Virus record (IMG/VR): IMGVR_UViG_3300045007_000250
Location: 1-64,000 of that record
Source of the DNA: a virus
Strand: one strand, 5' to 3'
DNA length: 64,000 bases
Shown here: positions 11,223-44,958 of the stretch, piece by piece
Numbering within the stretch: the stretch's first letter is position 1
Layout of the letters: the number at the start of each line of letters is the position of its first letter
Position numbers and translations under genes: made by a program
The notes under the pieces: generated by a model
The model's database searches: none
What the model saw: the letters and a program-made list of their open reading frames with translations, nothing else
Told to the model about the DNA's origin: nothing

Positions 11223-11262
11223 TTTGGGCCGTTGGACCAACAAACGGGCGGATGGCACGTAC

Positions 11263-11676
11263 ATGACTCGCGGGGGAAAGCGCAAGGCCGGGTGGTCCTA
11301 CTGGCGAATGCAGACCTGTCCCCACTGCGGACGGAAGTACCGATACTTCCGTATGGGCATGGCTCGTGAATCCGTGTATGAAAGCCTTTTGTCCGAGCAG
11401 CGTGCGGGGAAAAGAAACCATGTAACCTTGCGGACCTATCTTGGAAAAATGCACGAAATCAAATTGCGAGCGTGGGAAGCTCATGTTACCTTTTGTGAGA
11501 TGAATCAGAAGTATCTTCGCGGTGAAATTACCGACATGGAGATGGAACAGATATTTAGAGATGCCTACTCGCGTGGGGAACTGCCGGGAGAGTTTATCAA
11601 AGGGAGAGGAGGAAGGACGGCATGGCTAGAGGAACAGAAGAAACGCAAAAGGGCGGCGAACGACGTATCATTTTGA
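11263..11676 (+). CDS. hypothetical protein with CPHC zinc element
   Basis: The first ATG in frame is 11263. The frame is open further upstream and could start at TTG 11224 just after the preceding stop, which would add a basic segment. CPHCGRKY lies about 20 residues in, half of a zinc ribbon. The rest is helical and charged (LRAWEAHVTFCEMNQKYL), ending in a Lys/Arg-rich tail. It overlaps the next gene. It probably binds nucleic acid. Confidence 0.55.
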   Translation: MTRGGKRKAGWSYWRMQTCPHCGRKYRYFRMGMARESVYESLLSEQRAGKRNHVTLRTYLGKMHEIKLRAWEAHVTFCEMNQKYLRGEITDMEMEQIFRDAYSRGELPGEFIKGRGGRTAWLEEQKKRKRAANDVSF

Positions 11677-13880: not shown

Positions 13881-13915
13881 TCGGATGAACACTTGAACTA
13901 CAAGAGGACATGACA

Positions 13916-15256
13916 ATGCCAGAAGCGAGAAAAAGACCGAGATGGATGGCCGGAAGGGGCCGCAAGGATATGGCTTCCACAATCCCCCATTCCGTCAGGG
14001 AGCGGGTGACTTCCGAAGAAGCGGGAACCGCGGCGAAGCGTGTCCCCCGTGTCCCGCCGATTGCTTCTGCCAGTACGGACCCGGAGCTTGCGAACCGGTT
14101 TGCGGATTTCCTTATTACTGATATTCAGGATCATCCCGATGAGTACCCCAAATCCGTTGCGGATTTGGGACGGGCCGCGAAGGTCTCCGCCACTTACGTT
14201 CGTTTTCAGGTTGCCAAGCCGGACCTGATTGCTCGTGTACGTGCTGAGACCGGAATGACAATGGAAAGTGATGGTGCGACCGTTACCCTTGATGGTACTC
14301 CGGTAGCACCCCGCACCCCCAGCGGCGAGGGGGTAACGGTGAAAAAGGATGGAGCACGCCCCGATACGTGGCGGGTGCGTCCTATGTCCTCGTCAACGGA
14401 CTCCACGGTGGACCACGACCCCAATTTTTTCCACTATCCGCCGGGTTTCAAGGAGCGTGTTCGGGCCATTCTTGCCGCCGATCTAAACTTGTGGTTTTAC
14501 GGAGAAACCGGCACCGGCAAGTCAGAAGGCTTTGAGCGTATCTGCGAAGAGGATTCGCGCAAGGTAGTCAAGGCGTCCTGCAACGGGGAATCGTCGGTGG
14601 ACGACGTGCTTGGACATTTTATCCTGCGTGGTACGGAAACCGTGTGGGTGGACGGCGCTCTTCCTCTAGCCATGAAGACCGGCGCGGTGCTGATCTGCGA
14701 AGAAGTGGACGCGGCTCCGGCGGAGATCAACCTTGCTCTGCAACGGGCTTTGGAAGTGCGTGTTGGACGTAAACGGCATTTCCTGAATCCGCGCAACGGG
14801 GAGGAAGTTGAAGCGCAGCCGGGCTTCCTGATCGCCGCGACGGCCAACACCAGTGGCGGCGGGGACTACTCCGGTATCTATGCCGGAACGCAGACGCAGA
14901 ATGCGGCCTTCCGAGATCGTTTCGTGTTTATTCAGGTGACGTACCCGGATGAGCCTTCTGAGATCAAGATTCTACAACATCGGGTGAAGGATTTTCCCTT
15001 TACGATTGCACAAAAAGCAGTGCGTCTCGCCAACTACGCCCGTAACGCAATGAAAAACGGGCAAACCTTCACTCCGGTTTCAACACGCTCCCTACTTGGG
15101 TTTGCGCAGTTGTATATGGCTTTCACCACCGGTGGTATTGGGGAGCGTACTTCCTTGCGTGACGCCTTGAATGCCACGATCTTTCACAAGGCGGCTTCCC
15201 CGTCCGATTCCAAGGCCCTCTCCGAGATGGCGCAAAAACTCTTTGGCACCTTCTGA
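13916..15256 (+). CDS. CobS/MoxR-like AAA+ ATPase
   Basis: This 446-residue protein starts at ATG 13916, 9 bases after GAGG. The N-terminal 130 residues are basic and disordered-looking, with a small helical segment that may bind DNA (SVADLGRAAKVSATYVRF). The AAA+ core has Walker A GETGTGKS (about residues 196-203) and Walker B VLICEEVD (about 261-268). It resembles the ATPase subunit of magnesium/cobalt chelatases and MoxR proteins, which remodel a VWA-domain partner. The VWA protein is the next gene. Phage pairs of this kind are known, but their job is not. A cobalamin role is not supported because no CobN is present. Confidence 0.85.
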   Translation: MPEARKRPRWMAGRGRKDMASTIPHSVRERVTSEEAGTAAKRVPRVPPIASASTDPELANRFADFLITDIQDHPDEYPKSVADLGRAAKVSATYVRFQVAKPDLIARVRAETGMTMESDGATVTLDGTPVAPRTPSGEGVTVKKDGARPDTWRVRPMSSSTDSTVDHDPNFFHYPPGFKERVRAILAADLNLWFYGETGTGKSEGFERICEEDSRKVVKASCNGESSVDDVLGHFILRGTETVWVDGALPLAMKTGAVLICEEVDAAPAEINLALQRALEVRVGRKRHFLNPRNGEEVEAQPGFLIAATANTSGGGDYSGIYAGTQTQNAAFRDRFVFIQVTYPDEPSEIKILQHRVKDFPFTIAQKAVRLANYARNAMKNGQTFTPVSTRSLLGFAQLYMAFTTGGIGERTSLRDALNATIFHKAASPSDSKALSEMAQKLFGTF

Positions 15257-15291: not shown

Positions 15292-15326
15292 ATACTTGAC
15301 GTGGCGCTTTGGTTCAGGGAGTGCCC

Positions 15327-17279
15327 ATGACGACAAGGGCAATACAAGTCCTAGAAACGGCGAGCGAAAAAGTTGCACGGATGATGACGGCAACGGGCGT
15401 CACCGTGCAATTTCATCCGAAGTGCACGGTGCCTTGTGCAGACCCCGAAACGCTGTCCATTGTGCTCCCACCGCTGCCTGAAAAGCTGACCGAGGAAGAG
15501 GAAATGAAACTCCGTGGCGCTCTTGACCACGAAGTTGCGCACATCCTCTTTAGCAAGAACAAGGATGGAAAGCCGGAAAACTTGGGCAAGCTGGGGGGAA
15601 CACTAGCCGGGTACTTGTTCAATATCGTGGAAGACGGGCGCGTGAATCGCCTCATTGCCGAAAAATTCATGGGGGCTGGTGAGAATATCTTGGTGGAAGA
15701 ACGGATGATTTTCAGGCATCATGCCGCAGAAGTGGCAACCAAGCGACCTACTTTGTCGGAAAAAGACAGGGTGAACTTGGAGCGATGGATTGCAGTGATG
15801 CGGGCGGTTGAAAAGTACGTTTTTCGGAGCGGGGAAGATGTCACGACTCCGCTGGGGCCGTCTCGCTTTGATGCGACCCTTCCTGCTTCCCTGAAAGCTC
15901 GTCTTGAAGCCGTGGCGACCTTAGAAGACGCCAAGGAGTGTGCGGACCCTATCAAGGTGTGGCTTTTCGGCAATCCTGATGAAGCCAAAAAAACCAAAAG
16001 CGACGCCCGCAAAGACGCGGGGAAGACCAAATCCGACAAACGCGGCTCCGGTTCAGGCAAACCAGACCCTTCCAAGGGGTTTGAGGAGCCGGAGAAGGAT
16101 GCAAAGGAGGAAGCCGGAGACAACAAAGCCGTGGAGGAAGAGAAGAAAGAAGCAGGGGGTAAGAACAAAGAGGAAAAGAAAGAAAAACCGGAAGCAAAGA
16201 GCGATTTAGAAGACGGTGAAGGCTTCGAGGAAAAAGATACCGATAGGGATGGTGAGTTATTTGGGGAAGATGACGAAGAAAACGTCGGCGCTCTTGTCGC
16301 AGTTATGATGGAAGGGGAAGCGGATAAGGCGGAGTTCCTAGAGATTTCCGTTGATGCCTTCCGGGGGGAGACCCGGTACTACGTGGACACGTCAACGGAT
16401 GCGGAAGTCCATGTGAGGGACGTTGCCAAGTATAGTTGGCGGGACGGAATGATTGACCCGGAGGCCCTCATTGAAGGGAAGCGTCTTTTCTCTGGCTTGG
16501 TGGACAAGGTGGCGGCTCTCCGTGGGCGACTCATTATGGACCTTCAAAGCATCGGAAGAAAATGGGAGCGCCATCTTGAGACCGGTATCTTGGATACCCG
16601 CGCTCTTCATCGTCCATTCGTCGGTGATCCGCGGATGTTCGCCAACCGGGTCAAAAGGGAAAAAATCCATACGGCGGTTACGCTGCTTCAAGACTGCTCA
16701 AGTTCCATGCACGGAAAAAAGTTCAACACGTCCATTCAGCTTGCCGCCCTCTTCTGCGATGCGTTAGAGATGGCAAACGTACCGTGTGAAGTGCTTGGTT
16801 TTACTACGCATTATAATGCACGTCCCACGTTTGGCATTCGCCATGAATCCTTGCTTCATGTCGTTTTCAAGAGTTTCCAAGAGCGGGCTTGGTCGCACCG
16901 GAATGACTGGTATGCAATGAATGACCTGCTAGGTCAGAATGTGGACGGGGAAGGTGTGCTTTGGGCGGCAAAGCGGCTTGTGGTGCGGCCTGAGCGCCGG
17001 AAGGTGCTTTTTGTACTCTCCGATGGTATCCCGATGGCGATGGTTGATGGGCGTGGGACTGGTGGTGTTTACATTCTTCACTCCCACCTGAGAGAATCAG
17101 TCCGGGCGGCGGAGTTGGCCGGGATCGAGGTGATCGGTGTGGGGATCAGGACGGATGCACCCCGGTATTTCTACCGGAAGCATGTTGTTTACGATAGCCT
17201 TGGCGATTTGATGACGGGCTTCTACTCCGGGGTAGCTTCCCTACTTAGAGGGGGTCCGGGCTTGCCGATGGCCGTGTGA
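15327..17279 (+). CDS. CobT-like VWA protein with metallopeptidase-type HEVAH motif
   Basis: This 650-residue protein starts after AGGGAG. Domain order: an N-terminal part with DHEVAHILFS (about residues 67-76) and NIVEDGRVN (about 100-108), a layout like the zinc-peptidase fold of DUF2201-type proteins; a long Lys/Glu/Asp-rich linker (about 220-310); and a C-terminal VWA domain whose metal site starts QDCSSSM (about 456-462) and continues with VLFVLSDG. CobT-like VWA proteins are moved by the MoxR/CobS ATPase encoded next door. The linker is charged enough to be disordered. HEVAH could be a real zinc site or a structural relic. Confidence 0.85.
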   Translation: MTTRAIQVLETASEKVARMMTATGVTVQFHPKCTVPCADPETLSIVLPPLPEKLTEEEEMKLRGALDHEVAHILFSKNKDGKPENLGKLGGTLAGYLFNIVEDGRVNRLIAEKFMGAGENILVEERMIFRHHAAEVATKRPTLSEKDRVNLERWIAVMRAVEKYVFRSGEDVTTPLGPSRFDATLPASLKARLEAVATLEDAKECADPIKVWLFGNPDEAKKTKSDARKDAGKTKSDKRGSGSGKPDPSKGFEEPEKDAKEEAGDNKAVEEEKKEAGGKNKEEKKEKPEAKSDLEDGEGFEEKDTDRDGELFGEDDEENVGALVAVMMEGEADKAEFLEISVDAFRGETRYYVDTSTDAEVHVRDVAKYSWRDGMIDPEALIEGKRLFSGLVDKVAALRGRLIMDLQSIGRKWERHLETGILDTRALHRPFVGDPRMFANRVKREKIHTAVTLLQDCSSSMHGKKFNTSIQLAALFCDALEMANVPCEVLGFTTHYNARPTFGIRHESLLHVVFKSFQERAWSHRNDWYAMNDLLGQNVDGEGVLWAAKRLVVRPERRKVLFVLSDGIPMAMVDGRGTGGVYILHSHLRESVRAAELAGIEVIGVGIRTDAPRYFYRKHVVYDSLGDLMTGFYSGVASLLRGGPGLPMAV

Positions 17280-24618: not shown

Positions 24619-25965
24619 ATGACGACTCCTTTTGTGGATTCTTGGCTGCACCTACCCGTTGGACCATACAATCCGTCCACGTTGGCCGGGCGTCTGACTT
24701 TTTTGAGCCGAGCGTCCGAGTTTGACCCCACCGGTGCGCAGTCTCAGATAGACCTTTTCAAGATGGAGCCGGGTGGGATCGCCATTCCGCGCAATGCTGC
24801 AATCGTTCCGCGAAGTGTGATCTTGGGTGCAACTGATTGCACTACCGCGGGGGATTATAGGCTTTTCAAAGCCCCGTCCATCACGCTTCGTCCTCATCAA
24901 GAGCCGGTGTTGGCAACCGTGATGGACGCTTTGAGTGGTTCGTATCCTTATGGTGGGATTATCCTGGCGAAGCCGGGAAGCGGAAAGACGGTGATGGCGT
25001 TGGAGGTCGCCCGCCGCCTGTGTCGCACCACCCTGATTTTGGTCCACACGACGGCTTTGATGACGCAGTGGGGAGACCGTATCCGTGAGCATCTTCCGGG
25101 TGCGCGGGTGGGTTTTGTTCGTCAAGGCATGTGTCAGTTCGGTGATAATTACGACTTCGTGGTGGGGATGCTAGAAAGTCTATCCGTCCGACAGTACCCT
25201 TCTGCGTTCTACCGATGGCCGGGTGTGGTGATTACGGATGAGGTTCACCGGCTTGGGGCGGAGACATGGGCACCAGTGATTGTGCAGTTTCCTGCGAAGG
25301 TGCGCCTTGGGTTGACGGCCACCCCGCGACGCAAGGACGGGTTGGAGCCGGTTTTTTTCTGGCACGTCGGGCCGATCATTTCCACGGCGAAGCACGACGC
25401 GATTATGACCCCCACCGTGAAGGTGGTGAAGTACATCAAGACGTACAAACGAAACTTCATTCAGCGAAACGGGAACTTCAACAGGGCGCGGTGGCTTACC
25501 AGTATCGGAGAGGATGCGGAGCGGAATTGGGTGCTCTGCCAGTTCATTTTGAAGGCGTTGCGGAATGGTAGGAAGATTCTTTGTCTTTCTGATCGTCTTG
25601 AGCAGATTGCCGCGGTTCGCACCATGCTTGCTCCCCACGTTCCGACCGGGAAGTGGGTTAGTCCCTACGTTGGGGAGTGTACTCCGGCGGAGCGAATGGA
25701 GGCCGTGGCGTCGGACGTGATTATGGCAACGTACCCGATTGCGGCGGAGGGCTTGGACATACCGGACTTGGACACCCTTATTTTTATGACTCCCCGTGGC
25801 GATGTGGAGCAAGCAGTGGGGCGTATTCAGCGTGTGGTGCCGGGGAAGTTGACGCCGGTAGTCATAGACATTGTGGACGCGGCTTATAGGTTTGGGGTTG
25901 CACTGGCAAAGGTTCGGCGGCGGGTTTACGAAAGAATCGGGGCGATGATGCACGAAGGGCGTTGA
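24619..25965 (+). CDS. superfamily 2 DNA helicase
   Basis: This 448-residue protein has Walker A AKPGSGKT (about 117-124), the DExH box DEVH (about 207-210), GLTATPRRKDG (motif III) and, in the second domain, TYPIAAEGLDIPDLD and AVGRIQR (motifs V-VI). The layout is that of phage UvsW-like and DEAD/DEAH repair helicases, which unwind forks and recombination intermediates. It lies 12 bases after the polymerase gene. Confidence 0.9.
   Translation: MTTPFVDSWLHLPVGPYNPSTLAGRLTFLSRASEFDPTGAQSQIDLFKMEPGGIAIPRNAAIVPRSVILGATDCTTAGDYRLFKAPSITLRPHQEPVLATVMDALSGSYPYGGIILAKPGSGKTVMALEVARRLCRTTLILVHTTALMTQWGDRIREHLPGARVGFVRQGMCQFGDNYDFVVGMLESLSVRQYPSAFYRWPGVVITDEVHRLGAETWAPVIVQFPAKVRLGLTATPRRKDGLEPVFFWHVGPIISTAKHDAIMTPTVKVVKYIKTYKRNFIQRNGNFNRARWLTSIGEDAERNWVLCQFILKALRNGRKILCLSDRLEQIAAVRTMLAPHVPTGKWVSPYVGECTPAERMEAVASDVIMATYPIAAEGLDIPDLDTLIFMTPRGDVEQAVGRIQRVVPGKLTPVVIDIVDAAYRFGVALAKVRRRVYERIGAMMHEGR
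24828..24841. promoter_or_regulatory. palindrome TGCAACTGATTGCA inside the SF2 helicase gene
   Basis: Exact arms with a CTGA centre, read as A-T-D-C, again a different frame from most copies. Confidence 0.5.
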
Positions 25966-25990
25966 CAAGCCCCTTTTGGCGTGTTATAGT
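25962..25990 (+). promoter_or_regulatory. promoter TTGACA-17-TATAGT
   Basis: TTGACA 25962-25967 overlaps the helicase stop. TATAGT is at 25985-25990, with GGCGTGT ending the spacer. It drives the recombination block. Confidence 0.85.
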
Positions 25991-26024
25991 TAGAAAGGGT
26001 GAAACTTTGAAAGGAGAAACCCCC

Positions 26025-26960
26025 ATGAGAATACCCGTGAAAGCGAGACCAAGGACGAAGGGCGATGCTCTTCTGGTTTCTTCCGCAGCGTCCGGCGGAC
26101 CCGTGCAAGACGGGGAGTTGTCGGAGACCGTGGATACCAGCGTTTTCGACGAGATTGACGGTGTGACGCCTGATCCGGTGGACGACGCCGCTTTGGAGAA
26201 GGAACATCTTGCGGCGGGCGCTTCGGTGGAAGAGGACGCCAATTTGGGTCCGGTGGCCCACATCGAAGACGCAGCGAATATGACGGAAGGCGACGCCGTG
26301 AGCGGTGACAAGCCGGTGACGATTCCCCAGGGCGGCTTGCCGGTACTTGGCAAAGAGGGTGCTGTGGTGACTTCCGGCACCAAGACCGGGCGGTTTACCA
26401 CGGCGGTCTCATCCGTCAAGGAAGTGGAGAAACCGGTGGATTTGGTGAAGGGGCGCGGGGATGCTCCGGTGGAAAAGCATCCGGCTCCGGCTCCCGGTGA
26501 GACGGCGGAGATCATCTTGGTTCCGTCCACCATTACCGTTCGCAAGCAATTCTTGAAAGTCACGGACGGCAAGATGAGGATGGTGCGGGAAGAGGAAAGC
26601 ACGGAGACCATTGCCGTGCATCGCTTCGTAACCATACCGGCGCAGCCGGGGTACACGGCGCAACGCACCGTCAACCTTGGGGACTTCAACTCCCTGAAAG
26701 TCGGCGTGTGGGGCACCGTTCCGTGCTACAAGGAGGAGTACGACGAGGCTTGCCAGTTCATTCAGGAACACACCGACGCTCGCATGGACTCCATTTCGGA
26801 CGCGATTGACAAGAGCATGGAAGGCGGGGACGCACCGGAGACCACGTATGAGAAGACTCCGGTTTCCAAAGACAAGGAAACGGCTCCGGCTTCCGAGACC
26901 CCGGTGGCGGGAAAAGGTGTGCGTGAGATTTCCACGTTCAAGCTCCCGATTGTGAGGTAG
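26025..26960 (+). CDS. acidic hypothetical protein, 311 residues
   Basis: AAGGAG (26011-26016) lies 8 bases before the ATG. After a basic start (RIPVKARPRTKG) the protein is acidic, Pro/Thr/Val-rich and probably disordered to about residue 150. A compact region follows (IILVPSTITVRKQFLKVTDG, YKEEYDEACQFIQEHTD). It could be a recombination mediator or a scaffold for the RecA gene downstream. No family is recognised. Confidence 0.65.
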   Translation: MRIPVKARPRTKGDALLVSSAASGGPVQDGELSETVDTSVFDEIDGVTPDPVDDAALEKEHLAAGASVEEDANLGPVAHIEDAANMTEGDAVSGDKPVTIPQGGLPVLGKEGAVVTSGTKTGRFTTAVSSVKEVEKPVDLVKGRGDAPVEKHPAPAPGETAEIILVPSTITVRKQFLKVTDGKMRMVREEESTETIAVHRFVTIPAQPGYTAQRTVNLGDFNSLKVGVWGTVPCYKEEYDEACQFIQEHTDARMDSISDAIDKSMEGGDAPETTYEKTPVSKDKETAPASETPVAGKGVREISTFKLPIVR

Positions 26961-26963
26961 GGT

Positions 26964-27725
26964 ATGGACGTGATGGCACAAGCAAAGACGGTCTTGGGGA
27001 CCGCCAAGAAGATTGTGGTGTTGACCGGAGCGGGGATTTCCGTTGAAAGCGGTATCCCCGCCTTTCGCACCGATGCCGACGCCTTGTGGTCGAAGTTTGA
27101 CATGGGCAAGGCCACGCTTTCCTATTTTCTCCATAACCCGGAAGGGTTTTGGAAGGCTCTTGGCCCGTTGGCGGGGAAGTTCATGGGCGCGAAGCCCAAT
27201 GCTGCACATGCGGCTTTGGCCGGTTTGGAGCAGACCGGGCGCTTGAAGGCACTTATCACGCAGAACATTGACGGTCTTCATCAAGAGGCCGGGAGCAAGC
27301 GCGTGATCGAATTTCATGGCAATGCCCGGCGCTTGGTCTGCTTGAAATGCGGCAAGGCGTACTCCGTGGCGGAGATACTTGCCGTGCATGACCCGGAAAA
27401 TGAGACCATCGTTCCGGCGTGTGAGTGTGGACAAATCCTGAAACCGGATGCCACCCTTTTCGGTGAATCAATACCCCCGGATGCGCTCAAGGCTGCGCTC
27501 AAGGCGGTGCGGGGAATGGTGGACGCCATGCTGATTGTCGGTACATCCGGTTCCATTCAACCGGCAAACCAGCTTCCTCAGATCGCCAAAGAGCGCGGTG
27601 TCAAAGTGATCGAAGTCAATCCTTCCCCCACTCCGTACACTCAGCACCGGATTACGGATATTTTTGTGAAGGGGGCTGCGGGGATGGTGCTGCCGCAAAT
27701 TTTGGGGGGAAAATTATGTCAGTAA
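26964..27725 (+). CDS. Sir2-family NAD-dependent deacylase (sirtuin)
   Basis: This 253-residue enzyme removes acyl groups from lysine using NAD, or cleaves NAD. All signature parts are present: GAGIS (22-26), TQNIDGLH (99-106, with Q100, N101, D103), catalytic H118 in FHGN, the zinc ligands C126, C129, C153 and C155, and VGTSGSI for the nicotinamide/NAD pocket. It lies in the recombination operon between an acidic protein and RecA. It might modify host or phage proteins or act on NAD during host defence. Confidence 0.92.
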   Translation: MDVMAQAKTVLGTAKKIVVLTGAGISVESGIPAFRTDADALWSKFDMGKATLSYFLHNPEGFWKALGPLAGKFMGAKPNAAHAALAGLEQTGRLKALITQNIDGLHQEAGSKRVIEFHGNARRLVCLKCGKAYSVAEILAVHDPENETIVPACECGQILKPDATLFGESIPPDALKAALKAVRGMVDAMLIVGTSGSIQPANQLPQIAKERGVKVIEVNPSPTPYTQHRITDIFVKGAAGMVLPQILGGKLCQ

Positions 27726-27922
27726 TTGCTACGAAACCGTGTTTTGATTTTGCGGGTGGTCCTGATGCGGGGATTTTGCCTTGTCAAACGGACGGGGCTT
27801 TTTCCGGCAAGGTAGAGTGCCTTGAATTACTTGAGGGCGGGTGTTGGTCCAAGTGTGTGATGGGCAAGCTGCACCCGCTTTACGAGGATTGGAAGTCGTC
27901 AAAGAAAGCGGTGTCAAAGTGA
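27716..27922 (+). CDS. small cysteine-rich protein, 68 residues
   Basis: It overlaps the sirtuin end by 10 bases and the RecA start by 4. Five cysteines are scattered (PCFDF, LPCQTD, VECLE, GCWSKC), suggesting a compact zinc- or iron-binding fold. No family is recognised. Confidence 0.6.
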   Translation: MSVIATKPCFDFAGGPDAGILPCQTDGAFSGKVECLELLEGGCWSKCVMGKLHPLYEDWKSSKKAVSK

Positions 27923-29193
27923 GCGAAAAGATCAACGCGAAGTACGGGCCGGGCACACTTGTTCGGCTCGGTGAGCAGGTGCTTGGGCACCGGATTTCCA
28001 CTGGTATCTTCGACTTGGACCTTGCCCTTGGCGGCGGGTGGCGTGGCCCTTTCGATGAGATTTGGGGTGGGCGTTCCACCGGAAAAAGCACGGTGGCGGC
28101 ACATACGGTCCATGAGGCTCAACAGATTTGCCGGTACGACGGTTTGCTTCTCGGTGATCCGAAGGTGGAAGGAAATTCCCCCTTGCCGTTGGTGCCGACA
28201 TGGACCGACCCGAAGGGTGGTCTGCATTCGGGGCCGGATACGGACACGGATGAGTTCAAGAAAGCCGCCTACGAAGTGAAGAAGGTCAAGGTCAAGGACG
28301 AAGAGGGGAAAGAGACCGGTGAAGTGCAGGAAGTCACCGTATTGCGCAAGGGGTGGGTGCAGCATCGGGTACAGGAGCCGCTTCGTTGCACCGTGGTCAA
28401 CGTGGAGCAGGCGGTGGACCCGGATTGGTACATTCACTGCGGGGCTGACCGTGACTTGACCAATCTTTTGAACGTGACCACGACGGAGCACGTTGTTGAC
28501 CTGATTGACGTGCTGATTCGGGAACAGACCGCCGATTTTGTGGTGCTGGATTCCATCGCGTCCATGTCTCCTCTGTGGGAGCAGGAGAACACGGCGGAGA
28601 AAAAGGCTCCTCCTAAAAACGCCGAATTGCTCAACCGCGCCCTGCGCTGTTGGCTTGCCGCTATCGTGGCTCGGCAAGGCGCGACCGTCCTTCCCCGCAT
28701 CCTGTTGGTCAACCAGGTGCGTTCCAAGATCAACCTGCCCTATCCCAACATGAATCCCGATGTAAAGACTGCCGGATTGGGGCAGGACTTTGCCTCTGTC
28801 TCCGAAGTGAAGTTAGAGCCGGGAAAGCATGACAAGTCCGATTTTCTGTCCCCGGAAGACGGCGGTTTGTCAATTCTCAACCGCACCAACTTCAAGGTGA
28901 CGAAAAACAAGACCTACCCCCCTCTTGGTTATGGTCAGTTCATCACTTGCCTGATTGGGCACGACGGGTATTCACAGGGCGAGATCATGCAGCTTCGCTC
29001 GGTGTTCGAGACGGCGCGGCGGTACAACGTCATTCAGACCGTGAAAGACAAGTGGTTTCTCGGTGGCTTGGAGTTCCGCACGCAGAAGGCGGTGGCGGAG
29101 CATCTTCGGGAACATCCTGCTGATTTTCGCGCCTTGTGGCGGGTGCTGGTTCCCCTTGTCACTGCGGCGCGGATTGGTCGGAAAGTCGCATGA
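27919..29193 (+). CDS. RecA-family recombinase
   Basis: This product of 424 residues starts at GTG 27919, coupled to the preceding stop. Walker A is GGRSTGKST (about 50-58), Walker B FVVLDSIASM (about 208-217), and the L1/L2 region is announced by LLVNQVRSKI (about 264-273). It carries an insert rich in Lys and Glu (about 115-140) not found in bacterial RecA. The role is strand exchange in phage recombination and repair. A longer frame upstream would overlap the small Cys-rich gene. Confidence 0.88.
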   Translation: MSEKINAKYGPGTLVRLGEQVLGHRISTGIFDLDLALGGGWRGPFDEIWGGRSTGKSTVAAHTVHEAQQICRYDGLLLGDPKVEGNSPLPLVPTWTDPKGGLHSGPDTDTDEFKKAAYEVKKVKVKDEEGKETGEVQEVTVLRKGWVQHRVQEPLRCTVVNVEQAVDPDWYIHCGADRDLTNLLNVTTTEHVVDLIDVLIREQTADFVVLDSIASMSPLWEQENTAEKKAPPKNAELLNRALRCWLAAIVARQGATVLPRILLVNQVRSKINLPYPNMNPDVKTAGLGQDFASVSEVKLEPGKHDKSDFLSPEDGGLSILNRTNFKVTKNKTYPPLGYGQFITCLIGHDGYSQGEIMQLRSVFETARRYNVIQTVKDKWFLGGLEFRTQKAVAEHLREHPADFRALWRVLVPLVTAARIGRKVA

Positions 29194-29585
29194 AGGCCCT
29201 GGCCGATCATATTCCTAGAAGGGTGGGGAAGAAAGTTGGGCGGGAGTGCGACGTTCCGACGTGGAAAAGGCAGGAGCGGCGGGTTGCGAAGCGGCGCGGG
29301 GCCAAGTTACAACCGAGAAGCGGGGCACACCCTACCCGGAAGGGGGACACTGTTGACTCCGTGGTGGTGATTGAAGCCAAGAGCACTAAGCACGCTTCCA
29401 TCTCAATCACGGTGGGGCATCTTCAAAGGGTGACGGATGCCGCACACGCGGCAGGGGTGTCCCCGGCCATGTCCTACACCTTCGAGAACATGCCGCCGGG
29501 GGTGGACCCGGATTGGGTTTTGATTCCGTTAGGGGTGTTCAACGCTTTGACTGGCACCCCGGAGCCGGGGTTGAAAGAGGGGTGA
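29190..29585 (+). CDS. Hjc-like PD-(D/E)XK nuclease candidate
   Basis: The ATG overlaps the RecA stop (ATGA). Of 131 residues, a basic N terminus is followed by GDTVDSVVVIEAKST (Asp, then E-A-K), SITVGHLQRV and a final beta pair. This is the pattern of Holliday-junction resolvases of the Hjc type and related phage nucleases. Coupling to RecA fits a job in recombination. The first conserved Glu is not certain. Confidence 0.65.
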   Translation: MKALADHIPRRVGKKVGRECDVPTWKRQERRVAKRRGAKLQPRSGAHPTRKGDTVDSVVVIEAKSTKHASISITVGHLQRVTDAAHAAGVSPAMSYTFENMPPGVDPDWVLIPLGVFNALTGTPEPGLKEG

Positions 29586-29615: not shown

Positions 29616-29644
29616 TTGACAAGCCAAAAGTGGCGTGTTATATT
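29616..29644 (+). promoter_or_regulatory. promoter TTGACA-17-TATATT
   Basis: TTGACA 29616-29621 and TATATT 29639-29644, with an extended -10 (TGT). It is the strongest-looking promoter in the window and controls the SWIM protein gene. Confidence 0.9.
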
Positions 29645-30091: not shown

Positions 30092-30104
30092 TTGGTGAAG
30101 ACAC

Positions 30105-30130
30105 GGGCGGGGGTAAAACCCCGCCCTTTT
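30105..30130 (+). terminator. intrinsic terminator
   Basis: GGGCGGGG and CCCCGCCC pair perfectly around a 6-base loop and are followed by TTTT. It closes the SWIM gene unit. Confidence 0.85.
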
Positions 30131-30151
30131 GTGCGTGAAATAGGAGTAAAA

Positions 30152-31135
30152 ATGCGGTGGGTCAGGACCGGCCTCAAGAAGCCGTCCGTTCCGGCGGTAA
30201 AGCCCCTTGGTGCGGCTGAAAAGAAGTCTTCCGTTGTGTCGGGTATTCCCGTCACTCTCCCTCGTCCGTTGGTGCTTCCCGCTTTGATTGAGGCGGTGAA
30301 GGAAGACGACGTGCGGGATGATTCCTACCTTCATGCGTCTTCCCTTGAGGATTACTGCCCGCGTATGCAGGTGATCCTTCATGTGTTCGGGTTGCGGGTG
30401 TCCAAGCCGGAGCTTTCGTTGAACCTGAAATGGACGATGGAGCTTGGCAAGATGATTCACACCACCCTGCAAAACCGCTTCCTTGGGCGGCGGGGGGTGT
30501 TGGTCGGGAAGTGGAAGTGCCTTGCGTGCGAGCATCGCGTTGGCCGGGATATGCCGAATGAGTGGGTACGAATGCCGGACCCTGGCGAATGCCCGGCTTT
30601 GTCCACTTTCAGTGGTCGGGAACGTCCGCACCTTTGGGTGCATGATGAATGCCACGCGGTTGATGCAGAGCTTGGGATTGGTGGGGACATTGACGGCGGG
30701 ATTCGACACTCCAACGGGGAGATCGTCGGCTTGGAGATCAAGAGCATTTCTGCGGACGGGCACAATCGTCTTCGTGGGGTGAAGGCGGACCATATTGTGC
30801 AAGCCAACGTCTATATGATGCTCTTTGGGCTTCGACAACAGGTTTTTGTTTATACATCGAAGGGTTGGCATGATGAAAAAGAGGCGACCGTGCGTGACGC
30901 GGCTGGGGGTTGGCGCAACGGTCCTTTCTATGAAGTTTCGTTGAAGCGCGATGAGCGGGTGATTGCCGACTTCGTGCTCAAACGCCGGTCGGAACAAACG
31001 GCGCGTGCGGATATGGCGCGAAGCGGTGGGGAGTGTTACCCACCGCGGTTGGAGAGGGAGTGCGCTTCGGAATTTACAGGTCGGGCCAAGGCTTGCCCGG
31101 TGAAAGACCTTTGTTTTTCTCTGGCGGCTGAGTGA
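30152..31135 (+). CDS. Cas4/RecB-like nuclease with Fe-S type cysteines
   Basis: This 327-residue protein starts behind TAGGAG. The RecB-type core is visible as GGDIDGGIRH, GLEIKSIS (E-x-K) and QANVYMMLFG (QxxxY). Four cysteines suited to a 4Fe-4S cluster are C69 in SSLEDYCPRM and three near the C terminus (CASEF, ACPVKDLC). An extra CLAC...C...C knuckle lies in the middle. It likely resects DNA ends for the RecA system. Confidence 0.82.
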   Translation: MRWVRTGLKKPSVPAVKPLGAAEKKSSVVSGIPVTLPRPLVLPALIEAVKEDDVRDDSYLHASSLEDYCPRMQVILHVFGLRVSKPELSLNLKWTMELGKMIHTTLQNRFLGRRGVLVGKWKCLACEHRVGRDMPNEWVRMPDPGECPALSTFSGRERPHLWVHDECHAVDAELGIGGDIDGGIRHSNGEIVGLEIKSISADGHNRLRGVKADHIVQANVYMMLFGLRQQVFVYTSKGWHDEKEATVRDAAGGWRNGPFYEVSLKRDERVIADFVLKRRSEQTARADMARSGGECYPPRLERECASEFTGRAKACPVKDLCFSLAAE

Positions 31136-31824
31136 TGGAGAGACCCGTACCGAAGCCGGATGGCTTTGTTCATCCGACATGGGCTGTTGGCCTTGACTTG
31201 AGCTTGGATTCCGCCGGTGTGGTGGTTCTTGGCGATGGGCTGGTGCAGCATCACGAAGCCTTGCAGTATGCCCCTGTGTCCGCAGAGATGACCCGCACGA
31301 AGTCCGGTAAGAGCCAGTCCCTTACGTTGCGGCAGAAGGCGGCGCGATTGGCTTTCGTCTGTGATGGGGTGTGCCGAATCATGTTGGATGCCGGTACTCC
31401 GCACGCCGTCATTGAGAACTACGCCTTTTCACGGGGCGGGGCTTCCGCGTCCGTGACCGGGTTGGCCGAAGTGTCCGGGGCGGTGCGGGTTGCTCTTTTC
31501 AAGATGGGGGTTGTCCCCCTGGTTGTGGAAGTTTCCGTGGCGCGGGCTTTTGTCTGCGGGAAGGGGAATGCGACCAAGGAAGACACCATTGCCGTGCTTC
31601 AAGGCGCGCAGTATGGAAAGCAGCAGTTTGGAACGGAAGATGAGTACGATGCAATGGCCTTGGCGCTGATTCTCTACTATCTTCGTAATCCGGGGAAGCG
31701 CGAGGGTTTGTCCATGAAGCAGGTGTTGACTCTCTCCCGGTGGAGTGACCGGGTGGATCGGGTGACGGGGGTGGTTGTGCCGTCAAAGTTCAAAAAAGTG
31801 CAACTGCTTGCACAGAAGCCTTGA
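31135..31824 (+). CDS. RuvC-like Holliday junction resolvase
   Basis: This 229-residue protein carries the RuvC acids D21 in GLDLSLDSAG, E94 in VIENYAF and D169/D172 in TEDEYDAMAL. The ATG overlaps the preceding stop. It resolves four-way junctions before packaging. Its stop codon lies inside the next -35 box. Confidence 0.88.
   Translation: MERPVPKPDGFVHPTWAVGLDLSLDSAGVVVLGDGLVQHHEALQYAPVSAEMTRTKSGKSQSLTLRQKAARLAFVCDGVCRIMLDAGTPHAVIENYAFSRGGASASVTGLAEVSGAVRVALFKMGVVPLVVEVSVARAFVCGKGNATKEDTIAVLQGAQYGKQQFGTEDEYDAMALALILYYLRNPGKREGLSMKQVLTLSRWSDRVDRVTGVVVPSKFKKVQLLAQKP
31799..31812. promoter_or_regulatory. palindrome TGCAACTGCTTGCA upstream of promoter
   Basis: Exact arms with a CTGC centre. 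It overlaps the last codons of the resolvase gene and ends 8 bp before the next -35 box. Confidence 0.75.
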
Positions 31825-31849
31825 CATTCCAAAAGCGGCGTGTTAGATT
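31821..31849 (+). promoter_or_regulatory. promoter TTGACA-17-TAGATT
   Basis: TTGACA 31821-31826 and TAGATT 31844-31849, with GGCGTGT ending the spacer. It drives the genes from 31892. Confidence 0.88.
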
Positions 31850-38917: not shown

Positions 38918-40752
38918 GCCCCCCTGAGACTCCTCTTCCGCCGCAACTCCTACCCGAAGAGGCGGAGATGCTTTCTCGCCTTTCGCCGGAAGAGCGGGAA
39001 GTTCTGCAAATGATCCTCTTGGGCAATGAGGATTTGCTGACCGCTATCTACGATCAGGAGTATGAAGAATCCCCGGTGGATGCTAAGACCTTTTTCACCG
39101 ATCCTTATTACTTGGGTGTAACCGGTGGAGACCTCTATCCGCAGGTGTTGGACGACCTTTGTGAGATTTTCAACCCGGAGAGGAATTATCTTGAAGTAAT
39201 CCTTGGCGGAGCAATCGGATGGGGAAAGAGCACTGAAGTTGAATTTGGTTTGCTTCGGTGCCTTTATGAGATTGCTTGCTTGCGTAATCCCCAGCGGTCC
39301 TTTGGTCTCATGGAAGGCTCGTCTATCGTCATCATCAACCTTTCGGTCACGGAGCAACAGGCGCGGAAGGCCATTTTTTCCGGTCTTCTGGCGAAGGTGC
39401 GGCAGTCTCCGTTTTTCAAGAACAACTTTGCCTATGATCCTACCGTAGTCTCGGAGCTTCGTTTCCCCAAAGGCATCACGGTGTTCCCCGGAGCTTCCAC
39501 GGACAATTCCATTCTCGGTTTGAACGTCGTGGCCGGAGCGGTGGATGAAACCAACTTCATGCCCATCATGGAAGTACGGAAGACTGCTGGGGGAAGGTCC
39601 GCGGGCGTGTATGATAAGGCGGCGTCCTTGTATAACGCCATGATTCGTCGCATGAAGAGCCGCTTCCTTCGACATGGACGTTTGCCCGGCAAGATGTTTT
39701 CTCTTTCCAGTGCGCAGTACCCCAACGATTTTATTGAGCGGAAGGTGCGGCAGGCGCTTTCCGACACGACCATTTTTGCCCGCCGATATGCCCTTTGGGA
39801 CGTGAAGCGTGAACAGTTCTCTACGCAGACTTTTCCGGTGGAAGTCGGCACGGACCTTTCCGGTTCCCGTGTGCTTTACCCCGGAGATCAGCCGACCGGG
39901 AAAGTGATTGACGTTCCGGTGGACTTCCGACCTGATTTTGAAAAGGACTGTGACGGCTCTCTTCGTGACATTGCCGGGGTCAGCACGCTTACCGTGGATC
40001 AGTTCATCAAGGACTTCGGGAAGGTGGTGGAATGCGTCAATGAGAAGCGCCGCCACGCCTTCACTAAGGAGTTCACCACCCTTGAGGATGGGGCTAAACT
40101 TCGGCTTTCTACTCTGCTCAAGGAGAATCCTCAGAATCCGCGGTGGAAGCCGGTGCTCATTCACAATCCTGAATCCTTGCGAGTGGTTCACATTGACCCC
40201 TCGCTAACCCGCGACGCCACCGGCATTGCCGTGGGGCACATTTCCGATATGGTGCGGGTGGTGCGGCGGCAGGATGATGGGACGGAGAAGGTGGAGTGGG
40301 CACCCTTCATCGTCTATGACTTGCTGTTGCGTATTGTTCCACCGCGGCACCGGGAGATTCAGTACGACCGAATCCGCGACATTATTTATCGGCTGCAAGA
40401 GGTTGGGATGCGGATTGGGTTTGTGTCTATGGATAGCTTTCAAACGGCGGAGATGAGGCAACAGCTTACGCGGCGGCGCATTCCCAACGATGTGCTTTCG
40501 ATTGACCGCACCACCGAACCATACGAAATTCTCAAGGCGGCTTTGTATGAGAAGCGGGTGGACCTGTACCCCTACCCCGTTGCGATGAAGGAGCTTCGCC
40601 AGTTGGAGCATGACCGACTCAAGGGAAAGATTGACCACCCGGAGCATGGGTCCAAAGACGTGTCCGACGCGATGGCGGGCGTGGCTTATATTCTCACTTT
40701 GCACGCGGCTCGTTTCTATAAGCCCAAGGTGAGCGTAAGCACATTCGGTTGA
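38914..40752 (+). CDS. terL: large terminase subunit
   Basis: This 612-residue packaging motor and nuclease has Walker A GAIGWGKST (99-107) and Walker B VAGAVDET (acidic D211, E212) in the ATPase half. In the nuclease half it has HIDPSLTRDATG (Asp near 428), SMDSFQTAEM (near 507) and KDVSDAMAG (near 586), the three acidic clusters of the RNase H-like fold. It overlaps the preceding gene by 4 bases. No intein is seen. Confidence 0.93.
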   Translation: MSPPETPLPPQLLPEEAEMLSRLSPEEREVLQMILLGNEDLLTAIYDQEYEESPVDAKTFFTDPYYLGVTGGDLYPQVLDDLCEIFNPERNYLEVILGGAIGWGKSTEVEFGLLRCLYEIACLRNPQRSFGLMEGSSIVIINLSVTEQQARKAIFSGLLAKVRQSPFFKNNFAYDPTVVSELRFPKGITVFPGASTDNSILGLNVVAGAVDETNFMPIMEVRKTAGGRSAGVYDKAASLYNAMIRRMKSRFLRHGRLPGKMFSLSSAQYPNDFIERKVRQALSDTTIFARRYALWDVKREQFSTQTFPVEVGTDLSGSRVLYPGDQPTGKVIDVPVDFRPDFEKDCDGSLRDIAGVSTLTVDQFIKDFGKVVECVNEKRRHAFTKEFTTLEDGAKLRLSTLLKENPQNPRWKPVLIHNPESLRVVHIDPSLTRDATGIAVGHISDMVRVVRRQDDGTEKVEWAPFIVYDLLLRIVPPRHREIQYDRIRDIIYRLQEVGMRIGFVSMDSFQTAEMRQQLTRRRIPNDVLSIDRTTEPYEILKAALYEKRVDLYPYPVAMKELRQLEHDRLKGKIDHPEHGSKDVSDAMAGVAYILTLHAARFYKPKVSVSTFG

Positions 40753-40813
40753 TTGTCTTTCCGACACGCCCTACTACCTGTGCCCGTCTTTCTTTCAGTG
40801 GCGCTTTTTTGTG

Positions 40814-40842
40814 TTGACACGGCGGAAAAGGCGTGTTACGTT
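40814..40842 (+). promoter_or_regulatory. promoter TTGACA-17-TACGTT
   Basis: TTGACA 40814-40819 and TACGTT 40837-40842, with GGCGTGT in the spacer. It drives the helix-turn-helix gene only. Confidence 0.85.
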
Positions 40843-40892
40843 GATGGTGCCCGTTGGGAAAGCACCGTTCACAAAGAACGGGGTGGAGAAAG

Positions 40893-41303
40893 ATGAGCGA
40901 CGTGAAGGAGAAGAAGCAGCAGCGATTGGCGGAGCGTTGGCGCACTCGGATTCTCGTGGAGCTTGGCACGATGACGGATGCGGCCTTGGCAAAGAAGTAT
41001 TCCAAGAAGGTCGGATTCGTCATTGGGCGGCACACCATCTTCTATTTGCGCAAGGCCAATGGCATTCCGGCTTTTGAACAGCGGGCGTATTCGCCTCCGT
41101 CTTTCCGCGGTCGTTTGGAAGATGCGCACCCGGAGATCAAGGAGTTACTCGGTAAGGTGCCCGTGGTCGCGCTGGCGATGAGGTACGATGTGTCCCGGTC
41201 TTGCGTTCGGGCAGCGGCACAACGCCTTGGGCTTCCGACCCGTGCGCAGAATTTCGACGATGTGATTGCCGCGGCAGAGGCTAAGGTACAAGCGACGGCG
41301 TAG
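40893..41303 (+). CDS. helix-turn-helix DNA-binding protein
   Basis: This 136-residue protein starts behind GGAGAAAG. Two helix-turn-helix-like stretches are seen: TMTDAALAKKYSKKVGFVIG (about 24-43) and VPVVALAMRYDVSRSCVRAA (about 88-107), and the ends are basic. It stands alone under its own promoter and faces the minus-strand genes. It is a candidate regulator of the phage promoters, though nothing links it to the palindrome directly. Confidence 0.7.
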   Translation: MSDVKEKKQQRLAERWRTRILVELGTMTDAALAKKYSKKVGFVIGRHTIFYLRKANGIPAFEQRAYSPPSFRGRLEDAHPEIKELLGKVPVVALAMRYDVSRSCVRAAAQRLGLPTRAQNFDDVIAAAEAKVQATA

Positions 41304-41323
41304 GCTCAAGTCAAGAAGCAAGA

Positions 41324-41659
41324 TCAGGCGGCTTTGTTCTCAACTCGCCGGTCAATCACGTCCGTTAGCATGTCGCAGTACACGGTATCCACCGTTTCCA
41401 CCGTCGTCCACTTACCCCGGCGGATGCAGCCAAACTCCACGGTATAATCGTCGGAGCAGGTGAGCCATACGATGACCCATCCGGTGAAGTGGCGACCGGA
41501 GACGTAGAATTTCAAACCGCCTTCCATGAAGCTGCCAAAGCGGTGCGTCTTTGGCATGGCGATCAGCTTGCGCATTCCCCAAGAGCCGGGCACGAATGGG
41601 CCGTGCGCAGCAAAGATTTGGGCGCGGATGATGCTGGCGATTTCCATGTGGCGTTGCAT
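41324..41659 (-). CDS. hypothetical protein, 111 residues
   Basis: The ATG at 41659 follows AAGGAACTGACA, two bases after the stop of the 52-residue gene. The protein is beta-rich with several Trp and Tyr (GRHFTGWVIVWLTCSDDY) and looks like a small compact fold. It is second in the short minus-strand unit. No family is recognised. Confidence 0.75.
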   Translation of the reverse strand: MQRHMEIASIIRAQIFAAHGPFVPGSWGMRKLIAMPKTHRFGSFMEGGLKFYVSGRHFTGWVIVWLTCSDDYTVEFGCIRRGKWTTVETVDTVYCDMLTDVIDRRVENKAA

Positions 41660-41661
41660 TG

Positions 41662-41820
41662 TCAGTTCCTTTCCGTATCAAAGAGCGACTCGATTTCCCG
41701 AAGTTCGTTTTCCATGTCGGCAATCTCTTCCGGGGTGGCGGTAGCGCGTGCGGCTTCAAGTTCTGCCCGCAAGCCTTCGAGCATCTTCCCCGCCGCTTCA
41801 ATCATTTCTCGGTGTGTCAT
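41662..41820 (-). CDS. 52-residue coiled-coil protein
   Basis: ATG 41820 lies behind AAAGGACACGGACC, downstream of the minus-strand promoter. The product is one or two charged helices (EMIEAAGKMLEGLRAELEAA, then EIADMENELREIESLF) with heptad-like spacing. Small helical proteins like this often bind and inhibit a host enzyme, but that is inference. Confidence 0.7.
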   Translation of the reverse strand: MTHREMIEAAGKMLEGLRAELEAARATATPEEIADMENELREIESLFDTERN

Positions 41821-41850
41821 GGTCCGTGTCCTTTCTCAGTGTCTAGGGGT

Positions 41851-41879
41851 ATTCTGACACGCCTTTTTCGGCTTGTCAA
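41851..41879 (-). promoter_or_regulatory. minus-strand promoter TTGACA-17-CAGAAT
   Basis: TTGACA 41879-41874 and CAGAAT 41856-41851 on the minus strand, with GGCGTGT ending the spacer. It drives the 41820 and 41659 genes. Confidence 0.8.
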
Positions 41880-41887
41880 GGAAAAAG

Positions 41888-41901
41888 TGCAAGCGATTGC
41901 A
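41888..41901. promoter_or_regulatory. palindrome TGCAAGCGATTGCA upstream of minus promoter
   Basis: Exact site, 8 bp from the -35 box at 41879-41874, with an A/T stretch between. Confidence 0.8.
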
Positions 41902-41925
41902 TTTTTTCCTGGCCTCAAAATGCGG

Positions 41926-41955
41926 GGCACCCGGCTTTGCGACCGGGTGCCTTTT
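41926..41955 (+). terminator. strong hairpin with T-tract, + direction
   Basis: GGCACCCGG and CCGGGTGCC pair over 9 bp around an 8-base loop, followed by TTTT on the + strand. It would stop + transcripts running through the minus-strand genes. On the minus strand it lies in the leader of the transcript from 42024 and could attenuate it. Confidence 0.7.
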
Positions 41956-41995
41956 GGTGGGCTTTGTTGGAGGGGCCAAGTGGCAGTGTGGATGC

Positions 41996-42024
41996 TTTAT
42001 AACACGACTTTTTTGGCTTGTCAA
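41996..42024 (-). promoter_or_regulatory. second minus-strand promoter TTGACA-17-TATAAA
   Basis: TTGACA 42024-42019 and TATAAA 42001-41996. It is in tandem with the promoter at 41851-41879, and a hairpin lies between them. It has no palindrome. Confidence 0.75.
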
Positions 42025-42077
42025 GAGAAAAGTGGGGTGAGAAACCTTTTTTGGCCCTTCCCGCGACTTCTTTTTTC

Positions 42078-42106
42078 TTGACACGTCGGGAATGGCGTGT
42101 TAGGTT
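42078..42106 (+). promoter_or_regulatory. promoter TTGACA-17-TAGGTT
   Basis: TTGACA 42078-42083 and TAGGTT 42101-42106, with GGCGTGT. It is divergent from the promoter at 42024. The two -35 boxes are 53 bp apart. Confidence 0.85.
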
Positions 42107-42134
42107 TGGAGCAGGGACACGAAGGGGGACTTGA

Positions 42135-42266
42135 ATGCAATGCTCAATCTGCGGTGGTGAGTTGGTGGAGATGGGGGTGCTTGGCCGTTTGGTTCACCTT
42201 TGCTGCCGGAATTGCGGCCTGTGGTTCACTAAACGGAAGCGTCTCAAGCGCAAGGCGTCAAAGTAA
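42135..42266 (+). CDS. 43-residue zinc-ribbon protein
   Basis: The ATG lies behind AAGGGGGAC. CSIC and CCRNC (about residues 3-6 and 23-27) form a four-cysteine zinc ribbon, followed by a Lys/Arg tail. TAATG couples it to the next gene. Small basic zinc ribbons often bind RNA polymerase or DNA. Confidence 0.65.
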   Translation: MQCSICGGELVEMGVLGRLVHLCCRNCGLWFTKRKRLKRKASK

Positions 42267-42475
42267 TGTCTTTGACAAAAGAGGAAGAGGCGTTGGCGGA
42301 GCTTGCCTTTGGGCGCATTCTTCGCATGGCTTTCCGCCCCGCGCAAGCGGGGGACGTGGAGGAATACTACCGGTGCCGGGGGATCATGCTCGATCTTCTT
42401 GAGCCGGTATTTTCTTTTCAGGATACGCGCCCCAACTACGCCCGTGACCGTCTAAAAGGTGCGGCGGGGGGCTGA
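42266..42475 (+). CDS. hypothetical protein, 69 residues
   Basis: Coupled by TAATG to the zinc-ribbon gene. It is helical and acidic at the start (LTKEEEALAELAFGRILRM), with one Cys-Arg-Gly segment. No family is recognised. Confidence 0.65.
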   Translation: MSLTKEEEALAELAFGRILRMAFRPAQAGDVEEYYRCRGIMLDLLEPVFSFQDTRPNYARDRLKGAAGG

Positions 42476-42476
42476 C

Positions 42477-42833
42477 ATGGTAAACGACAAGGATTTTGTT
42501 CTCATTGCCGGTGATCCTTCCAAGTGGGACGCTGAAATACGCTCCCTTGCCGGGAATGTGTCTTTGTCCGCGTTGCAGAGTGCGCAGTTCATGGACGGGA
42601 GGCGCGGTGCGATTCTTCAACCGGTGCATGGTGGCAGAGAGTGGGTAGTCACGCATGACAGTTCCCTTTCTGGTTTTGTGGCGATCAACGGCATGAAACC
42701 GGTGGTGGACAAGCTGGTGGCGATCCGTGTGGGAATCGCGTGGGCGGAGAGGGCTCCGTTGAAGCGGGAGTTCTATGCTCGCCGGGTAGATGTGACACCG
42801 GAAGAGGTTGAAGCGGCGAGGAGGGCTGGATGA
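42477..42833 (+). CDS. hypothetical protein, 118 residues
   Basis: ATG 42477 lies one base after the previous stop. The protein is mixed alpha/beta with a Val/Gly-rich centre and a helical C terminus (EEVEAARRAG). It has no motif and is part of a four-gene accessory operon. Confidence 0.65.
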   Translation: MVNDKDFVLIAGDPSKWDAEIRSLAGNVSLSALQSAQFMDGRRGAILQPVHGGREWVVTHDSSLSGFVAINGMKPVVDKLVAIRVGIAWAERAPLKREFYARRVDVTPEEVEAARRAG

Positions 42834-42961
42834 TGGTGTGGAGACCTGAGACAGAACGCGGTGCTTGGGTCGTGCGGTGCTCTCAAAGACCGGGAAGAAA
42901 AATAATCTTTCAGTTGACAACGCTTTTTGGGTGTGTCAGAGTATCCGGTAATGAGTGAGGT
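42833..42961 (+). CDS. possible 42-residue peptide over a promoter
   Basis: ATG codons at 42830 and 42833 overlap the preceding stop. The frame then runs through the promoter at 42914-42942 and into the next gene. Composition is unremarkable (two Trp, several Arg). Because it spans a promoter it may be only an open stretch. Confidence 0.25.
42914..42942 (+). promoter_or_regulatory. promoter TTGACA-17-CAGAGT
   Basis: TTGACA 42914-42919 and CAGAGT 42937-42942, with TGT before the -10 box. Transcription would start about 42949, only two bases before the ATG of the next gene. Confidence 0.65.
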
Positions 42962-43211
42962 TGCGCCAGCTATCTTGAGGGAACCGGAGAAGTTGGTGGG
43001 CGTACCGAGTGAGAAAAAGCCTTTCTATGTTCGCTGTCCGCAGTGTCAGGTGCCTATCAGAATCTTAGATCGAGAGCGGAACGCAAAGCGCACGCTTTGT
43101 ACGTCCTGCTTCTCGGTTTTTGATCCTGAGACACAGCGGGTGTTGGTGAAACGCAATCTTCGCAACACCGATCCAATTGATCTTGACGACTTGGATGAGG
43201 TCAAACTATGA
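42951..43211 (+). CDS. zinc-ribbon protein, possibly leaderless
   Basis: This 86-residue protein has CPQC and CTSC (about residues 29-32 and 49-52), a zinc ribbon of the type found in transcription factors, and an acidic C terminus. No ribosome-binding site precedes ATG 42951. With the promoter above, the message may begin almost at the start codon. It overlaps the RlpA-like gene by 4 bases. Confidence 0.65.
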
Positions 43212-44892: not shown

Positions 44893-44929
44893 CGCCTTGC
44901 CCTTTCGTGGTCCGTGTCATCATGGGCAC

Positions 44930-44958
44930 ACTCTAACACGGCTTTTCCGGCTTGTCAA
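44930..44958 (-). promoter_or_regulatory. minus-strand promoter TTGACA-17-TAGAGT
   Basis: TTGACA 44958-44953 and TAGAGT 44935-44930. It drives the 44892 and 44479 genes. No good copy of the palindrome is upstream. Confidence 0.85.

Follow-up and report, generated by a model that had tools for sequence, protein, structure and literature searches.

The DNA analyzed here is a stretch of 64,000 nucleotides (the window), which is part of an 86,920-bp IMG/VR virus record (IMGVR_UViG_3300045007_000250). On its plus strand, an open reading frame at 26964..27725, with an ATG start and a TAA stop, encodes a protein of 253 amino acids. This protein is a full-length Sir2/sirtuin in which all of the NAD, catalytic, and zinc residues are present, as had been claimed in an earlier note on this DNA, and matches to Pfam, PHROG, and NCBIfam profiles confirm the gene at exactly these coordinates. 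The Pfam SIR2 profile (PF02146, cut-off 24 bits) is matched over its whole length (positions 1-180 of 180) with 149.5 bits and an E value of 1.3e-43; PHROG 2162, 'Sir2', is matched with an E value of 3.9e-33; and the score of 258.5 bits against NCBIfam NF001753, 'NAD-dependent protein deacylase', exceeds the curated cut-off of 243. The score against the CobB equivalog NF040867, 265 bits, lies below the curated cut-off of 320. By base composition alone, the chance of an open frame as long as this one is about 4e-5, and its GC content by codon position (0.59/0.44/0.66) equals that of the core genes of the phage (0.60/0.43/0.66).

The motifs expected of a sirtuin can be read off the protein directly: GAGIS (residues 22-26), GIPAFR (30-35), QNIDGLH (100-106), GTSG (193-196), and VNPS (218-221), with the catalytic histidine, H118, inside FHGN. 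A four-cysteine zinc site is formed by C126 and C129 (CLKC, 126-129) together with C153 and C155, such that the second pair is CxC rather than CxxC, as is also the case in several cellular relatives. An AlphaFold2 model (pLDDT 92.2, pTM 0.90) superimposes on solved deacylases with TM scores of 0.85-0.89. The best solved matches to the model are Sir2Af2 and Sir2Af1, whose structures were obtained with NAD, ADP-ribose, or acyl peptide, and this result agrees with the sequence searches. On the profiles, motifs, and model, then, the gene is predicted to specify a Sir2/CobB-type NAD-dependent protein-lysine deacylase, which is probably enzymatically active.

SIR2 domains can also have a destructive role. 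DSR2 and other bacterial defence systems use them to deplete NAD (PMC10981675), and the phage protein might likewise act as an NADase effector, killing or stalling the cell, for instance when other phages superinfect it. It does share the SIR2 Rossmann domain and the use of NAD+ with DSR2, ThsA, and Sir2-pAgo; however, those are multi-domain NADase effectors, whose models the sirtuin matches only over short, sub-threshold stretches (the PADLOC SIR2 models at E 0.0026 or worse). The phage protein is a single domain of 253 amino acids, the length of a stand-alone deacylase, lacks a sensor domain, and has its deacylase features intact, which makes such an effector extremely improbable. The converse idea in the earlier note, that the enzyme might counter NAD-destroying defence, is not supported either: the best PADLOC SIR2 match extends over only about 30 residues, a deacylase itself spends NAD, and no gene of the NAPRTase/NAMPT type is detectable in the phage or in its sister phage (below). 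A link to NAD salvage was rejected on this last ground.

The sirtuin gene lies within a long replication and recombination module. The head of the replication module is a CobS-like AAA ATPase (window 13910-15256) and a CobT-like protein (window 15309-17279), after which come an initiator-like HTH protein, a DnaC-like loader, DnaB, and a primase. The primase is followed by an SSB-like protein (so called because the genes in the syntenic position of related phages are annotated as DNA-binding), DNA polymerase A, and a RAD25/ResIII-like DNA helicase (24619..25965, +; Pfam ResIII, PHROG 16). Next is hypB (26022..26960, +), which encodes an acidic, low-complexity N-terminal part and a C-terminal domain recognized by PHROG 25619, tblastn, and synteny; its ATG start at 26022 is preceded by AAGGAG. 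The sirtuin gene comes after hypB and is followed by a 68-aa cysteine-rich frame, ORF68 (27716..27922, +), for which searches found no relatives. Beyond ORF68 are a RecA-like recombinase (27919..29193, +; Pfam RecA, E 4.7e-26), with a likely GTG start at 27919 as judged by alignment with the sister phage; a probable Hjc-like Holliday-junction resolvase (29136..29585, +), for which the Pfam Hjc match is weak (E 0.027) and which is homologous to the annotated Holliday junction resolvase genes of RcZahn and L338C; a SWIM protein; a Cas4-like exonuclease (30092..31135, +; PHROG 2506 and 1706); and a RuvC-like resolvase (31132..31824, +; PHROG 159). These neighbors are phage genes. The sirtuin is, as the earlier note had it, a free-standing protein encoded within a phage recombination operon.

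The genes around the sirtuin are tightly packed. The start of ORF68 overlaps the sirtuin stop by 10 nt, and the end of ORF68 in turn runs into the likely GTG start of recA. Just upstream of hypB, a consensus scan finds a putative sigma-70 promoter-like site, TTGACA-17-TATAGT (25962..25990, +; 11/12 matches). Two more near-consensus sites of this kind are present at window 29616-29644 and 31821-31849, and both have TG before the -10 box, as does the site before hypB. These promoter-like sites suggest that the phage uses the host sigma factor. The hypB-sirtuin-ORF68-recA-resolvase genes form an apparent operon, and the sirtuin and RecA are likely to be co-expressed.

A second contig, IMGVR_UViG_3300045008_000200 (83,213 bp), is 99.9% identical to the contig of the window and covers window positions 1-26840 and 47759 onward. 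About 17.2 kb of it (39163-56374) is absent from the contig of the window, which suggests that both are different cuts of a single genome, about 104 kb in size and circular or circularly permuted. The second contig breaks off at window 26840, which is 124 bp short of the sirtuin gene. This was considered as a sign of a variable insert and rejected; it is merely a contig end, and the sequence resumes at 47759. The replication proteins are only about 30% identical to those of Rhizobium, Rhodobacter, and Vibrio phages, and the capsid protein is about 40% identical, locally, to proteins of Streptomyces phages. The portal gene (window 53987-56827) holds an intein of about 336 aa (about 54833-55840), whose first residue is a Cys after NDA, which ends in THN before a Thr, and within which lies a LAGLIDADG domain; the portal domain (PF04860) continues at residue 618, past the intein.

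The same arrangement of genes is found in a diverged sister phage, contig IMGVR_UViG_3300017991_000007 (106,648 bp), which has the module in common with the window and in which most core proteins are about 47-59% identical to those encoded here (DNA polymerase 59%, RecA 47%). Its sirtuin orthologue is 57% identical and likewise lies between hypB and recA, with an overlapping frame after it. Given that the arrangement recurs on an independent contig, chance or mis-assembly of the sirtuin locus was rejected. The sister protein retains the NAD-binding and catalytic motifs GAGxS, GIPxFR, QNID, and HG; its zinc pairs are both CxxC, and it has FDE where most sirtuins have FGE. The overlapping frame of the sister, ORF150, is unlike ORF68, and ORF68, having no relatives, was accordingly rejected as a conserved partner of the sirtuin. 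Between the two phages, differences by codon position amount to 0.36/0.29/0.65 for the sirtuin and 0.34/0.26/0.64 for DNA polymerase. The two patterns match and are of the kind left by purifying selection, and the simplest reading of this pair of genes is vertical inheritance from a common ancestor. The orthologue is the strongest new evidence that the sirtuin matters to the phage. Scans of 2.9 million viral contigs, in which the two sirtuins and the two polymerases served as queries, revealed no third member of the lineage, and RecA as a probe for relatives among viral contigs yielded nothing that could be confirmed.

More distant relatives place the position of the gene in another light. In twelve named phages (of Rhizobium, Rhodobacter, Vibrio, Stenotrophomonas, and Pseudomonas), the genes follow, exactly or nearly, the order helicase, small gene(s), recA, resolvase, exonuclease, RuvC. 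In nine of these twelve, a homologue of the C-terminal domain of hypB was detected, and in seven it directly abuts recA; in RcZahn and RHph_TM16, one small gene stands between the two. PF02146 has no match in the whole record of any of the twelve. Two more distant metagenomic relatives, L165 and L209, whose records may be fragments, also have no sirtuin in those records, and between hypB and recA they carry, respectively, a 3D-domain protein with a 113-aa frame and two frames of 114 and 120 aa. The interval in question spans 26964-27922 in the window, 10268-11454 in the sister phage, 15617-16548 in L165, and 16733-17534 in L209. Because all fourteen of these relatives with the same module show no sirtuin in their records, and some have unrelated genes at this position, the hypB-recA interval is, as judged from gene content, an accessory slot whose contents differ between phages.

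These comparisons bear on the idea that the sirtuin serves phage recombination or replication by deacylating RecA, SSB, the helicase, or DNA polymerase, or replication proteins of the host, whose binding to DNA would otherwise be weakened by acylation during infection. This is a narrower version of the explanation that we favor below. In its support, two diverged phages have the gene next to recA, with overlaps between the genes, and in E. coli DnaA is inhibited by acetylation of K178 or K243, which CobB helps to reverse (PMC4971506, PMC5397419). However, the slot holds a 3D-domain protein in L165 and small frames in L209, twelve phages with the module do entirely without a sirtuin, and the neighborhood of a phage gene often reflects mere co-timing. 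A dedicated role in recombination or replication is thus possible but unlikely. The emphasis that the earlier note placed on the location 'beside RecA' is correct as to position; since other genes occupy the slot in relatives, it is weak evidence for a recombination role and says little about function.

The slot holds lineage-specific accessory genes, as is often the case for counter-defence genes, and another possibility is that the sirtuin strips acyl marks needed by a host defence system or a GNAT-type toxin. Sirtuins can act on such a switch, since CobB reverses the acetylation that the TacT toxin places on the TacA antitoxin (PMC5449658). However, the core-gene-like conservation of the sirtuin over the deep divergence of the two phages is unlike that of fast-changing anti-defence genes. 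Furthermore, a sirtuin would not restore NAD, and no member of the NAPRTase/NAMPT families was detected in the phage or in its sister. A counter-defence role is consequently improbable.

Among solved proteins, the best relatives by both sequence and fold are Sir2Af2 of Archaeoglobus fulgidus (1ma3, 1yc2, 4twj) and Sir2Af1. The sequence matches have an E value of 1.8e-52 with the phage protein alone and 5.4e-63 with the phage pair, and the match to Sir2Af2 by fold has 43% identity and a TM score of 0.85. Sir2Af2 and the phage sirtuin have the same motifs, and neither has the Y/R pair of desuccinylases. The phage gene differs from Sir2Af2 and Sir2Af1, to which it is about 40% identical, in its location in a recombination operon and in the CxC form of its second zinc pair. 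Outside the phage lineage, the nearest proteins are cellular sirtuins of Desulfarculus, Desulfobacterales, Elusimicrobiota, Bacteroidota, and Acidobacteriota (44-48% identity, the closest at 46-48%), several of which have CxC; unlike the phage copy, these are chromosomal genes.

Phage sirtuins themselves have been discussed previously (PMC5107563, PMC9503650). Those of T5, KVP40, V5-like phages, 4MG, SE131, and KEY (the PHROG 2162 group) are also stand-alone SIR2 proteins, often encoded near replication or nucleotide genes, but they are only about 26-31% identical to the sirtuin here and form a separate clade. The zinc site has been reported missing from the sirtuins of phiSt2 and KVP40 (PMC5107563), and the six proteins of the T5/KVP40/V5/SE131/KEY/4MG type that were examined have lost the zinc cysteines and have TNVDDLL or similar at the position of QNIDGLH, whereas the sirtuin here keeps both. 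The Streptomyces phages Comrade, Moab, and Annadreamy also have zinc-complete sirtuins, and Annadreamy provides the best viral structure match (TM 0.76-0.85). These proteins are about 27-30% identical to the one described here, and the Comrade gene lies beside rIIA and tRNAs. The Moab-type sirtuin is described as paired with a macro-domain gene (PMC9503650). The macro domain PF01661 is absent from the 86,920-bp contig, in which part of the genome is lacking and the neighbors of the sirtuin are present, and a sirtuin-macro toxin-antitoxin pair of the Moab type was rejected because no macro gene lies beside the sirtuin.

Two phylogenetic trees were constructed, the first with 105 sirtuins and the second with 57, the sister protein included. 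The first had long-branch joins among unrelated phage sirtuins, and those rows were consequently left out of the second. In both, the phage protein or pair falls among the cellular sirtuins of Desulfarculus, Desulfobacterales, Elusimicrobiota, Bacteroidota, and Acidobacteriota and apart from the T5/KVP40/V5 clade. In the second tree, the pair is a fully supported branch of its own (100/99), with moderate support for the deeper branches nearby (94/78) and no recent donor visible. At least four changes of the phage label are required on the first tree, and phages have probably acquired sirtuins several times. It is likely that some of the 'phage' records in that tree are host DNA. Sirtuin gene matches occur in 582 GenBank phage records, and such genes are thus far from rare in phages. 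In ON470619.1 (vB_EcoS-813R8), the 'phage sirtuin' sits between lolCDE/nagK and potCD, with an integrase nearby, and looks like the chromosomal cobB of E. coli; ON470612.1 has match values equal to those of ON470619.1. Counts of phage sirtuins thus contain some host DNA.

Several sirtuins of the T5/KVP40 group sit with RNA-repair genes, and Iyer and colleagues have predicted that the majority viral clade acts in RNA repair (PMC9503650). In addition, some sirtuins do ADP-ribosylate. If the present protein were of this kind, it would be an ADP-ribosyltransferase or RNA-repair enzyme rather than a deacylase. However, the T5/KVP40-type proteins are without the zinc cysteines, whereas the sirtuin here has the canonical residues and a different position in the trees; furthermore, there is no RNA ligase, 2H, or macro gene beside it. 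We regard this alternative as very improbable, and the RNA-repair proposal made for that viral clade should not be extended to an intact sirtuin such as this one.

Taken together, these results make it quite likely that the phage gene is a working deacylase of the Sir2Af2/CobB kind, acquired from a cell and kept by the lineage, that deacylates host or phage proteins. Of the roles offered in the earlier note, undoing host acylation or acting on phage proteins thus seems the best reading. In this model, the common ancestor of the phage and its sister would have taken the gene from a cellular organism into the hypB-recA slot and the lineage would have retained it, the protein probably being made together with RecA during infection. 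The enzyme would bind NAD+ and an acyl-lysine and, with the help of H118, transfer the acyl group to ADP-ribose, generating nicotinamide, O-acyl-ADP-ribose, and free lysine. As a result, host and/or phage proteins would stay deacylated during the takeover of the cell.

Some features of the protein bear on which acyl groups may be removed. The Y/R pair of class III desuccinylases (SIRT5/PA1125 type) is absent from the sirtuin and its sister; L66 and L69 occupy the positions of SIRT5 Y102 and R105, and the sister has L and V. In P. aeruginosa, the enzyme with an L/L pair has a preference for short acyl chains, and replacement of Y/R by L/L abolished desuccinylation (PMC10652111). Given these findings, the most likely activity, and the one that we would predict, is that of a deacetylase or long-chain deacylase rather than a desuccinylase or NADase. 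The preference of Sir2Af2 is given as myristoyl-lysine where it is cited in PMC10652111. Two observations count against the favored reading. One is the FDE motif of the sister protein; the other is that no match to the acetyltransferase family PF00583 was found in either phage, and the source of any acyl mark would then be the host or non-enzymatic acylation. Targets of CobB-type enzymes include acetylated DnaA (PMC4971506), acetyl-CoA synthetase (in a phage context, PMC5107563), and the TacA antitoxin (PMC5449658); replication, energy supply, and counter-defence are therefore all possible spheres of action for the phage enzyme. We would guess that the likeliest substrates are DNA-metabolism proteins and acetyl-CoA synthetase, which are the best backed by host biology. 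The more specific proposal, that during infection a canonical deacylase of the recA operon resets how the replication/recombination machinery, or else a defence switch of the host, is acylated, we consider doubtful.

Sirtuin genes are known in hundreds of phage records, many of them for copies without the zinc site, and no function has been shown for them in the literature found. What appears to be new here, given that phage sirtuins were already known, is an unusually intact copy of the cellular type that is conserved in its lineage beside recA. The comparison of neighborhoods has also shown that phages of a widespread group, roughly 80-110 kb in size, have a slot for accessory genes next to recA. 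If the proposed function is correct, this would be a phage enzyme that controls the lysine acylation of the infected cell, for which the literature found offers no demonstrated example. By its sequence, the present copy has everything needed for deacylation, and it is conserved like a replication gene. An intact and conserved copy of this kind therefore offers a clean way to ask whether phages edit the protein acylation of their hosts.
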